Part shown: positions 3,833-7,595 of the stretch, piece after piece
Layout of the letters: every line of letters starts with the position of its first letter
Numbering within the stretch: position 1 is the stretch's first letter
Origin: Acidobacteriaceae bacterium
GTDB taxonomy: Bacteria > Acidobacteriota > Terriglobia > Terriglobales > Acidobacteriaceae
Length of the DNA: 17,495 bases
NCBI GenBank assembly: GCA_003162495.1
Contig: PMOF01000147.1
Coordinates: 1 to 17,495, forward strand
Direction: 5' to 3'
The notes under the pieces: generated by a model
What the model was told of the DNA's origin: nothing
Database searches by the model: none
Seen by the model: the letters and a program-made list of their open reading frames with translations, nothing else
Program-made: the position numbers and the translations under genes

Positions 3833-6142
3833 TTAACGCGATTTGGCCGTTTTTGGCCACTTGCGCACAGCGTGTCTTGGCGTGGCCGCTGCGGCGGAGT
3901 TCAGCTTGTCCTGCAGCAGTTGATTCTGCTCGCTCATGTCAGGATAATTTGGAGTAAAGCTCCAGTAAGCGAGGTTCGCATAGGCCTGGGCCGGGCATGG
4001 AATCTCGCCTTGCGCGCTGATGGACGCAAGTTTTCCATCCGCCCCAGTCTGATTCTGGAAGACGTCGTTATCTTTTTCACGGGCAGCTTCATCAACGGCC
4101 AATGGAGCGGACGAATTCCCCTGAGCTTTCCGGCCCGCCGCCAGGTTGCCGGCGGCGTACTTCAAGACCGCTTCCCGGCTGCACAAGATAAAGCCGTAGG
4201 AATTCTTCAATTCGATGTTCATCGAAAGCGGGCGTGGCGGATTGCTGACCATCAGCGCAAACTCCGCTTGCCGCGACGGATCGTCGGGTGTGATCACGAA
4301 AGTGTAATTCAGCTTTCCATCCCATTTTGTCGTCAGATGGCCACTCAGCCCGGCTGCGCCTGAATCCACCGAGCCTAAGTCCCTGGGATCGCGCGATATG
4401 TTTGGATCTGCCACGACGGCTGCCGGCGTCGCAGCAGGCTTGGTCGCTTTCCAGGTAATGGCCGCGATCACGCCCCCAAACAGGACTCCCATGATGATGC
4501 CAATCACCACAATCATGACCGCCGCATTCGATGCCGGTCTTGCCGATTCAGCGGGCACATCCTGTGCAACCGGCGGGAGAAGCTCGATCGACGGAACGGG
4601 CTGACCGGGAGCAGGAAAGTCAACTGGTGGAAGTTCCGCCGCCGGAGGAGGAGGGATCACAATCGACTCTGGCTGGCCGGCAATTGCCTCGGCACGGAGT
4701 TGCCGCTCCGCCTCCGCCTTGGCGAGATACTCCTGGTGCTGTGCCTCCAGCTTGGTCAGGTAATCGAGCTGCTCGGTTCTCAAGGACATATCCGAGCGTT
4801 CCTGCGGGACCACATCCGGCGCCGCAAAAATGCTCTCCACTGGATTCGCAACCGGCATCTGGCTTATAACTGGCTGCGCGCTCTGCTCGACCGTCTCGAT
4901 GACGTGCTGGTCCGCAACCGCATCCGGCGCCGCGGTAACGCTCACTTCGGGAACCGCAATTGGCACCTCGCTCAAGACTGGCTGCGCGCTCTGCTCAACC
5001 GTCTCGCTGACGTGCTCGTGCTCGACTGCATCCAGAGCCGCGAAAAAGATCTCCACCGGATTCGCAACCGGCATCTCGCTCACGACTGGCTGCGTGTTCT
5101 GCTCAGCCGTCTCGCTTACGTGTTCGTGCTCGACCGCATCCGGCGCCGCGGCAACGCTCTGTTCGGGAACCGCAACCGGCATCACGCTCACGACTGGCTG
5201 CGCGCTCTGATCAACCGTCTCGCTTACGTGCTCGTTCGCGACCGCATCCGGCGCCGCGAAAAAGCTCTCTTCGGGAACCGCAACCGGCATCTCGCTCACG
5301 ACTGGCTGCGAGTTCTGCTCAACCGTCTCGCTGACGTATTCGTGCTCGACCGCATCCGGCGCCGCGAAAAAGCTCTCTATTGGAACCGCAACCGGAATCT
5401 CGCTCACAACTGGCTGCGTGCTCTGCTCAACCGTCTCGCTGACGTGCTCGTGCGCGACCGCATCCGGCGCCGCGAAAACGCTCTTTTCGGGAACCGCAAC
5501 CGGCATCTCGCTCAGGACTGGCTGCGTGTTCACTTCTGCTACCCCATCGAGGGACTTTTGCCGATCCGCCTCCAACTGGGCGAGACGAGCCTGGTGCTCC
5601 GCCTCTAATTGGGCCAGGTAATCCAGTTGCTCAAGCCTTAACGACCCACGTGAAAGGTTTTCCTTGCTCGCACTCGTCGTCTTGTCGGCGACGGGCTGCC
5701 CGCGCTCCTCAGTCGTCTCGCCGAGGGGCACTTGCGAAGCCGCATCATAAACCGCGCTGAAGCTCTCCTGGGAAGCCACAACCGGCAGCTCGTCGCCGCT
5801 CGGCGGTACGCTCTCTTCCATTGCCTCGCCGGCGTGTTCGTGCCGATTAGCCTCCAGCCTGGCTAGATAATCCCGGTGCTCCTCCTTCAACTTCGCGAGG
5901 TAATCCAACGGCTCAGATCCCGACCTCAAACTTGAGAGTCCTCCCTGGCCCGCACCCGGTGTTTCGCCGCGGCTCGGTGGCAGGCTCCTGTCACCTATCT
6001 GAGCGAATAAGTCTCGCTGATAGGCGTCCTGCGTGGCGGTGAACAGCGATTGCTGCCCAGTATTCGGCATATCGCCGGTGTCAGGCTGGCCGTTGCTCTC
6101 CGCCGTATTGCCGCTCAATTCATGCTGGTACGTATTCATCAT
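3833..6142 (-). CDS. Repeat-rich membrane-anchored protein of unknown family (larger paralogue)
   Basis: No known family was recognised in this 769-residue protein. Order of parts: a diverged 36-residue unit (about 17-52); coiled coil LDYLAKLKEEHRDYLARLEA (79-103); a second diverged unit (111-146); coiled coil LDYLAQLEAEHQARLAQLEA (171-198); seven tandem 36-residue units (205 to about 449); coiled coil LDYLTKLEAQHQEYLAKAEA (458-486); a proline-rich linker (about 494-532); one membrane helix (about 541-565); and a C-terminal domain (about 575-755). The last domain shares much of its sequence with the neighbour at 6360-7526, including the patterns GHL..WD.KL.Y, NxPRPL, GFxLC (Cys654), DxFQNQxG and PCP (Cys716). 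By analogy with that neighbour the C-terminus should lie outside the inner membrane. The start at 6142 (ATGATG) is preferred over the ATG at 6208. The latter sits in a box shared with the neighbour, where the equivalent ATG meets a stop after six codons. AAAGGG precedes the chosen start. A structural or envelope role is possible but unproven. Confidence 0.85.
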   Translation of the reverse strand: MMNTYQHELSGNTAESNGQPDTGDMPNTGQQSLFTATQDAYQRDLFAQIGDRSLPPSRGETPGAGQGGLSSLRSGSEPLDYLAKLKEEHRDYLARLEANRHEHAGEAMEESVPPSGDELPVVASQESFSAVYDAASQVPLGETTEERGQPVADKTTSASKENLSRGSLRLEQLDYLAQLEAEHQARLAQLEADRQKSLDGVAEVNTQPVLSEMPVAVPEKSVFAAPDAVAHEHVSETVEQSTQPVVSEIPVAVPIESFFAAPDAVEHEYVSETVEQNSQPVVSEMPVAVPEESFFAAPDAVANEHVSETVDQSAQPVVSVMPVAVPEQSVAAAPDAVEHEHVSETAEQNTQPVVSEMPVANPVEIFFAALDAVEHEHVSETVEQSAQPVLSEVPIAVPEVSVTAAPDAVADQHVIETVEQSAQPVISQMPVANPVESIFAAPDVVPQERSDMSLRTEQLDYLTKLEAQHQEYLAKAEAERQLRAEAIAGQPESIVIPPPPAAELPPVDFPAPGQPVPSIELLPPVAQDVPAESARPASNAAVMIVVIGIIMGVLFGGVIAAITWKATKPAATPAAVVADPNISRDPRDLGSVDSGAAGLSGHLTTKWDGKLNYTFVITPDDPSRQAEFALMVSNPPRPLSMNIELKNSYGFILCSREAVLKYAAGNLAAGRKAQGNSSAPLAVDEAAREKDNDVFQNQTGADGKLASISAQGEIPCPAQAYANLAYWSFTPNYPDMSEQNQLLQDKLNSAAAATPRHAVRKWPKTAKSR
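4800..5530 (-). repeat. 108-bp in-frame tandem repeat, about 7 copies
   Basis: The plus-strand word CATCC(G/A) recurs at 4813, 4921, 5029, 5137, 5245, 5353 and 5461, exactly 108 bases apart. It encodes 36-residue units inside the larger paralogue, with the shared core QPVxSEMPVAVPExSxFAA followed by PDAVxHEHVSETVEQ. The last unit is incomplete and runs into a coiled coil. Units are alike at the DNA level, which points to recent expansion by slippage or unequal recombination. The whole number of codons per period keeps the frame. Confidence 0.95.
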
Positions 6143-6194
6143 CAGCCAGAGCCCTTTCGCCTTGTCCGACTTCCATATTTTTGCGGTTAAATGA

Positions 6195-6210
6195 ATTGGA
6201 CCACGCATTG
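6195..6210 (-). promoter_or_regulatory. Shared 16-bp box upstream of the larger paralogue
   Basis: On the minus strand this reads CAATGCGTGGTCCAAT. The same box with one change (CAATGCGTGATCCAAT) stands at 7580-7595 before the smaller paralogue. There are 52 bases between the box and the predicted start codon here and 53 there. It may be an operator, an activator site or a promoter part inherited when the gene duplicated. Confidence 0.6.
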
Positions 6211-6359
6211 CGTCCTGTGAAAACCCTTATCTGCCGCAAAACGGTCCTTTTAAGTTACTTTAGGGGAATACAGGCCCAATCTCGGTGGGTTGGATCAGAG
6301 GCAATTCCGCCGCTCATGAGTCGGAAATTCCGACCCATAATCCCTCCCGCCGCGGCGAT

Positions 6360-7526
6360 TCATCGCTTCAACCGGCCATGTAGAGGGCTTTCGCCCGTGC
6401 GCGTGATGGTGCAGTTTGCCGCCTGATCGCACTTGTAATGGACGGTGACGGGGAAGTCCACCGTCTTGAGCGCATTGGCTTCTCCGCTGGTCTTGTCAAT
6501 CTGAAAACGCCTCCCCGAGACGGCTTCGATCATGCCTGTCGATGGGTCATACGCGGCGAAAGCATCGTCTCCTTCGATGTAGAAAGGGGAGACCTTTGGC
6601 GCAGCTTTTGTTGCTATCTTCTTCTCGGCAAGGGCTCCGTTCGTCCTGGGCAGTGTGAGCTTCCGCAATTCTTCCTGTTCTGCAACGGATGGAAAGTTGG
6701 ACGTCACGTTCCAACTTGTAGTCGTTTGGTAGGCATTCTCAGGGCAGGGAAGAACCCCTTCGGCCTTGATCGCTTCAACACGTCCACTTGGCCCCACTTG
6801 ATTCTGGAAAATGTCCTTGCCCTGCTCCCTCGCCACTTCCATCGCATTCCACTGTGCGGAATCCATTCCGGGCGTCAACCGTCCGCCGAATAAATCCTTC
6901 GCGGATGAAACTCTGGCCAGAGCCTCGGGATTGCGCTCGGCCAGAGCCGCCGCTTTCCCAGCGTCGTACTTCAAAAGGATGTCCTTGGTGCACAACACAA
7001 AGCCCTCGGCATTTTGCAATTGAATCGTAATAGCGAGAGGGCGCGGAGAATTGGCGGCCGCCAGCGAAAACCCCGTCAGGTGATCCGGATCGCTGGGCTC
7101 AAACGACAGCCGGTATCTCAGCTTTCGGTCCCATTCGAGGAATAGATGGCCCTTCAATCCCGGCCCGGTGGCAAACGCGTATCCCAGATCGTACGGCCCA
7201 GTGGGATTGCTCACGTTCCAGGAAATGATCGCGACCGTGATTCCGAACAGAATTCCCAGTCCCACCGCTACCGAGGCATACACCCGTGCGGGGCTCTCCC
7301 CGAAGACCCGAAACTGTTGCTTCAACTCTTCAAGGAAGGGTAGCCGGGGAGGCTGCGGAGCAGGTGCGGCGCTCGGCTTCTCAACCGCGTTGTCCGCGTC
7401 CAGGGAAAAGTGGAGGGTGGGGTCCGTCTCGTAGCCGTGCTCCGGCTCAACAATCTGGTAGCGGAGAGACAGTTGTTCGCCCTCTTTTTTTTCCTGGCCG
7501 GGATCGTGGTGTTCCCCATCTGTCAT
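6360..7526 (-). CDS. Membrane-anchored protein of unknown family (smaller paralogue)
   Basis: The function is not recognised. The 388-residue product has an acidic, low-complexity N-terminus (1-60), a proline-rich patch and a basic helix FLEELKQQFRVFGESPAR (64-81). One membrane helix follows at about 84-103, then a C-terminal domain at about 113-285 that is clearly paralogous to the neighbour at 3833-6142. Conserved cysteines fall at about 179 (GFVLC) and 261 (PCP). Positive charges before the helix and none just after it suggest N-in, C-out, so the two cysteines could form a disulphide in the periplasm. A further C-terminal part of about 80 residues, with its own Cys pair in HYKCDQAANC, is absent from the neighbour. 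The ATG at 7526 follows AAAGGA with 9-base spacing. The alternative GTG at 7589 lies inside the conserved upstream box. The gap to the larger paralogue is 217 bases. Confidence 0.85.
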   Translation of the reverse strand: MTDGEHHDPGQEKKEGEQLSLRYQIVEPEHGYETDPTLHFSLDADNAVEKPSAAPAPQPPRLPFLEELKQQFRVFGESPARVYASVAVGLGILFGITVAIISWNVSNPTGPYDLGYAFATGPGLKGHLFLEWDRKLRYRLSFEPSDPDHLTGFSLAAANSPRPLAITIQLQNAEGFVLCTKDILLKYDAGKAAALAERNPEALARVSSAKDLFGGRLTPGMDSAQWNAMEVAREQGKDIFQNQVGPSGRVEAIKAEGVLPCPENAYQTTTSWNVTSNFPSVAEQEELRKLTLPRTNGALAEKKIATKAAPKVSPFYIEGDDAFAAYDPSTGMIEAVSGRRFQIDKTSGEANALKTVDFPVTVHYKCDQAANCTITRTGESPLHGRLKR

Positions 7527-7579: not shown

Positions 7580-7595
7580 ATTGGATCACGCATTG
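7580..7595 (-). promoter_or_regulatory. Shared 16-bp box upstream of the smaller paralogue
   Basis: The minus strand reads CAATGCGTGATCCAAT, one base different from the box at 6195-6210 and at nearly the same distance from its start codon. Weaker similarity continues on both sides: GGCAG followed about 20 bases later by the box, and a TCSGAC then AAAGG toward the start. Two separate copies argue that each paralogue has its own control region. Confidence 0.6.

Follow-up and report, generated by a model that had tools for sequence, protein, structure and literature searches.

A tandem pair of paralogous genes for predicted membrane-anchored proteins in an acidobacterial genome, and the modular family to which they belong

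The gene pair P1 and P2

The window analysed here is a stretch of 17,495 nucleotides (nt) of contig PMOF01000147.1 (assembly GCA_003162495.1) from an Acidobacteriaceae bacterium. Two adjacent genes on its minus strand, P1 and P2, encode related proteins that a preliminary description, made from the sequence alone, had presented as an unrecognised family sharing one membrane helix and a C-terminal domain. Both genes were found as described, and the features on which the following account relies are listed below with their window coordinates (aa, amino acids).

7526-6360, minus strand: P1, 388 aa, a membrane protein with domains A and B and a predicted topology of N terminus inside and C terminus outside (N-in/C-out)
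6672-7193, minus strand: domain A of P1, about residues 112-285, with C179 and C261, delimited from model and conservation; predicted Ig/FN3-like sandwich, from weak matches
6363-6584, minus strand: domain B of P1, about residues 315-388, with C366 and C372; predicted OB-like barrel, from weak fold matches
7580-7593, minus strand: promoter-like element ATGCGTGATCCAAT, 53 nt upstream of the ATG of P1
6142-3833, minus strand: P2, 769 aa, with a long repeat-bearing N-terminal part, one helix and domain A only
3905-4390, minus strand: domain A of P2, about residues 585-746 (model mc8d4d8432bbc)
4803-5526, no strand assigned: 108-bp tandem repeat, 6.7 copies, encoding the 36-aa repeats of P2
6195-6208, minus strand: promoter-like element ATGCGTGGTCCAAT, 52 nt upstream of the ATG of P2

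The two proteins are 33% identical across 281 aa (BLASTP, E 4e-44), and their outer parts align with a score of 350, the maximum among 1000 shuffles being 68. Eight landmark patterns were searched for, and each occurs in both proteins. The N-terminal parts are unrelated, as had been claimed, with a score of 31 that 808 of 1000 shuffles reached. Hydropathy gives each protein one strong hydrophobic helix. Among 109 family members, lysine and arginine are more frequent before the helix than after it in 87, equal in 13 and fewer in 9; this charge bias agrees with an N-in topology and, together with the outer cysteine counts, would place the C-terminal part outside the membrane, as was predicted earlier from the smaller protein. 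The repeats and coiled coils reported for one N-terminal half correspond in P2 to seven 36-aa repeats in register, spanning about residues 206-457, together with three heptad-like segments that lie at residues 77, 171 and 457. An antisense open reading frame (ORF) of 302 aa (4700-5608, plus strand) overlaps these repeats, and it most likely arises from the repetition of the codons and is not a gene.

Both paralogues are preceded by a promoter-like element. Within the window ATGCGTGRTCCAAT occurs free of mismatches at 6195-6208 and 7580-7593 only, and genome-wide the exact form ATGCGTGRTCHAAT is confined to two occurrences in each of G000 and G011, always upstream of a paralogue. When up to one mismatch is allowed, G000 has four occurrences (two exact) against two for the reversed control pattern, and G011 has three (two exact) against none. 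By hand count, 51-54 nt separate the element from the ATG, and the leader downstream is also similar in a comparison in which five of eight rows are informative, the stretches of G004 and G010 beginning too late and that of G017 being partial. A 15-base consensus was further scored over 27 family genes of the fetched loci, the window pair excluded, from the longest ORF starts; the shuffle fraction was below 0.05 in only 6, which marks the element as one of a subset close to P1 and P2 and not of the family at large, although this scoring missed a G003 copy that is visible in the leader comparison. Because the element spans 6195-6208, P2 probably starts at ATG 6142 rather than at the longest ORF start, 6208. 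The proteins have diverged to 33% identity, yet element and leader are held in common, which suggests selected twin promoters. A consensus promoter scan of the minus strand found no sigma-70-type site and no terminator-like site between P1 and P2; by eye, TTTTCA-17-TCCAAT can be read upstream of P2, and a clear first hexamer is lacking at P1. In a comparison with Rfam, no family attained its gathering score anywhere in the window.

Domains A and B

The outer part of P1 holds a second domain, B, with two more conserved cysteines, which the preliminary description overlooked, and P2 ends after domain A. Most blocks of both domains exceed a pLDDT of 90 in the P1 model (83.3 overall), and the model of the P2 outer part reaches 87.6 with a pTM of 0.79. 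The two invariant cysteines described earlier as able to pair are indeed invariant in the alignments, and their pairing is plausible. All four outer cysteines are present in 111 of 111 aligned members with A and B, of which 109 have exactly four outer cysteines and two have five. This alignment was drawn from 126 proteins found and omits 15 (P0007, P0034, P0035, P0038, P0039, P0046-P0050, P0053, P0054, P0126, P0130 and P0131), including the A-only and fragmentary proteins; what is counted for the B-domain cysteines therefore applies to members with A and B. A further alignment, which has 76 rows and takes in P2, P0034, P0035, P0039 and the A-only proteins P0046-P0050, also shows both A-domain cysteines to be invariant. 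The invariant residues are mostly glycine, proline, cysteine, aromatic residues and leucine.

The family is modular, combining the helix with A and B (as in P1), with A (as in P2) or, at other loci, with B. Eight helix-plus-B proteins occur in seven genomes (L045 and L105 of G003; L106-L109, L111 and L112 of six others), L045 adjoining a full A+B gene. The remaining family proteins at these scanned loci are A+B with two exceptions: the second gene of G011 has only A, and L102 escaped the B profile although its B cysteines are visible in the alignment. A second count of 153 profile matches, which covered the proteins found and part of the fetched loci (of L105-L112 only L110), gave 141 with A+B, 11 with A and 1 with B; among the 11 A-only rows P0053, P0054 and P0130 look like fragments, and L102 is another. 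A protein search with the helix-plus-B proteins returned 63 matches, taken as a list.

The earlier statement that no known domain family is recognisable holds for P1 and P2 in Pfam and NCBIfam, where neither passes a curated cut-off, and the same is true of PHROGs, PADLOC and PDB sequences. P1 has no Pfam or NCBIfam match at all. Below threshold, P2 matches FlgN (E 0.004; 18 of 30.5 bits) at residues 160-211, a heptad-like stretch, as well as PRIMA1 (E 0.88), EvgS (E 0.11; 9.9 of 1995 bits) and, among the PHROGs, an unnamed family (E 0.077). In a set made up of P1, P2 and three relatives, the best PHROGs match has E 0.072 and PADLOC gives none at E up to 0.1. DUF5775 was considered as a family assignment and dropped, because it is matched by 4 of the 111 relatives (best E 1.7e-4) and the other 107 give no match; DUF1854 is matched by three of the 111, at best with E 0.06. 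Foldseek searches of the PDB with the P1 and P2 models gave nothing at E 0.001 or better, and the P2 model has no match at that level in a viral structure library (best E 1.6e-3). The family is not described in the titles and abstract openings of the literature looked through.

Several known proteins offer a comparison. IrmA (PF18673, PDB 5ek5), an FN3-like secreted protein, gives a match that falls short of every significance cut-off and ranks level with unrelated sandwiches; the present family differs in being membrane-anchored and in having a second domain, and we claim no functional link. At E up to 1, PF18673 lists neither P1 nor P2, and one of the 111 relatives matches it at 0.029. Domain B was compared with the OB-fold proteins PilY2 and CusF/SilF, its own fold class coming from weak matches. 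CusF binds metal through histidine, methionine and tryptophan ligands; the domain B alignment (24 rows) has one invariant histidine and no invariant methionine. RodZ, which has an outer beta domain, is similar in its single helix, in the predicted N-in/C-out topology (hydropathy and charge) and in that the family gene often lies near mreB. Unlike RodZ, P1 and P2 have no cytoplasmic HTH_25 domain (Pfam, E up to 1). A separate HTH_25 protein is present in the genome of the window. This RodZ-like protein (L115:1155-1682, minus strand, contig C263) has 175 aa, with about 40 residues past its helix, and it appears to lack a large periplasmic domain. In five related genomes searched, the open frames with the best HTH_25 match are likewise short (151-182 aa).

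Distribution, neighbourhood and history

It had been suggested that restriction to the Acidobacteriota with conserved pairing would support a new family. The matches keep largely to one genus, apart from a few divergent relatives elsewhere in the class. Tandem pairing is not general: of 20 fetched loci, 18 have a single family gene, G011 has a pair of the P1/P2 type, and in G003 an A+B gene is accompanied by a B-only one. A search with P1 matched 26 genomes out of 60: 26 of the 36 from the genus of the window (its own genome counted) and 0 of the 24 outside. The family profile matches 6 of 299 genomes of the class, including the compact divergent relatives in G066, G120 and G140, which have 272-294 aa with only about 20-25 residues before the helix, and which keep the four cysteines and the order helix-A-B in the alignment. 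A profile of these three matches 15 of 399 genomes, five of them by short stretches (G114, G222, G235, G400 and G401; E 5e-5 to 9e-4), three with an internal stop. In a draw from the phylum 4 of 297 genomes match, G191 through a short stretch with stops. A search of genome contigs with P1 as the sole query returned no relative. These genome searches were a loose first look with few candidates scored per genome, and an absence in them is no proof. Named holders include Terracidiphilus sp. proteins.

The window also carries genes that we take, by eye, to be mreB, mreC, lrp, ald, an aldehyde dehydrogenase (ALDH) gene, ntrY and ntrX. In 18 of the 20 fetched loci the family gene has the mreB, lrp, ald or ALDH genes that form this block close by, and in all 15 whose stretch holds mreB it is on the mreB strand; in G004 it lies immediately upstream of mreB. 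The ALDH gene of the window stands between mreB and P2 on the opposite strand. At the corresponding place in G011, between P2 and mreB, this gene has shrunk to a 46-codon match (L040:10359-10496, minus strand). Other settings are found for the copies L056 and L057, which adjoin what seems by eye to be an NRAMP transporter gene, and for the helix-plus-B genes L106-L109 of four genomes, which share a neighbourhood with genes that, by eye, resemble carA and a signal peptidase gene. In G005, G008, G018, G021, G371 and G433 other genes occupy the corresponding interval of the mreB block, where no domain profile matches. As the position is kept in most loci and six genomes have other genes there, the family looks stable in place and dispensable.

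In a domain A tree of 79 rows (fragments P0053, P0054 and P0130, the B-only protein and, for size limit, P0060-P0131 set aside), the window P2 falls in a clade of 10 rows with the second gene of G011 (support 100/94), a clade that holds both A-only and A+B metagenome proteins. The window P1 falls in a separate clade of 21 rows with the first gene of G011 (96/96). Since each paralogue groups with one G011 gene, the tandem duplication probably predates the split of the window species and G011. Domain B would have been lost within the P2 clade at least once, and twice by simple counting. The N-terminal part has a higher ratio of nonsynonymous to synonymous substitution rates (dN/dS, Nei-Gojobori, with many dS values near saturation) than domain A in all 7 estimable pairs of 9, the domain limits, taken from merged profile matches, being loose for several pairs; the ratio stays below 0.45 in the outer domains wherever estimable. 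In this estimate the G011 P1 start (L040:7308) is placed 8 codons upstream of the ATG at 7332.

Possible roles of the family

We favour, with a probability of about 0.45, the reading that P1 and P2 are old tandem paralogues in a modular, mostly genus-restricted and dispensable family of single-pass, envelope-anchored binding or scaffold proteins. The helix would be an uncleaved signal anchor in the inner membrane, leaving the N terminus in the cytoplasm and the C terminus on the outer side. The outer part would consist of one or both of two small domains, the Ig/FN3-like A and the OB-like B, each probably stabilised by a single disulfide and serving as a non-enzymatic binding or scaffold module of the envelope; this part of the proposal is drawn from the anatomy, from the lack of a recognised output domain and from the kind of conserved residues. 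The acidic, low-complexity cytoplasmic part may act as a tether with no dedicated signalling output, and P2 may be a B-less partner or modulator expressed alongside P1. A bolder form of the proposal seems unlikely to us, namely that P1 and P2 make up a co-regulated hetero-complex of an undescribed acidobacterial envelope system, in which A and B are new domain families shuffled on anchors and the acidic repeats of P2 are a length-variable intracellular scaffold.

The preliminary description had seen a sensor-like or scaffold domain joined to variable cytoplasmic parts. The variable parts are real. A sensor coupled to different modules did not emerge, as the tails are low in complexity and mostly acidic with no output domain recognised, and what is truly swapped or lost lies outside, being A, B or both. 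A transmembrane sensor, whose outer domains bind a ligand and whose variable tails signal to different partners, would fit the conserved outside, the variable inside, the single helix and the heptad-like segments of P2. However, neither P1 nor P2 has an output domain over the curated cut-offs of Pfam and NCBIfam such as transmembrane signal receptors carry, the tails consist of repeats and low-complexity sequence, and in the three compact relatives only about 20-25 residues precede the helix; we therefore regard a sensor as improbable. Slightly less probable again is a RodZ-like accessory of MreB-directed elongation, with the cytoplasmic tail turned toward MreB and the outer domains toward the wall. 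The neighbourhood near mreB and its constant strand speak for it, as does the short tail of the genome's own RodZ-like protein. An MreB-linked function is nevertheless ranked lower because six other genomes of the genus retain mreB and carry other genes in the interval; moreover, the compact relatives, the L056 and L057 copies and the B-only copies sit among other genes, P1 and P2 have no helix-turn-helix, and in the window the opposite-strand ALDH gene separates mreB from P2. Patchy presence, duplication, repeat expansion and domain loss could also be those of a fast-evolving envelope or surface protein shaped by contact with phages or competitors. This we find the most doubtful of the explanations, given the low outer-domain dN/dS, the place kept in most fetched loci and the poor PHROGs and absent PADLOC matches reported above.

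The binding or scaffold proposal thus keeps the greatest weight, and the sensor and MreB-accessory explanations stand below it. The orphan family is real but modest, and its domains fit no named family well. As a further membrane family restricted to one lineage, it is of moderate general interest. Domains A and B of this common soil group are now definable families with boundaries, cysteine pairs and a promoter-like element, which makes their annotation and testing practical.
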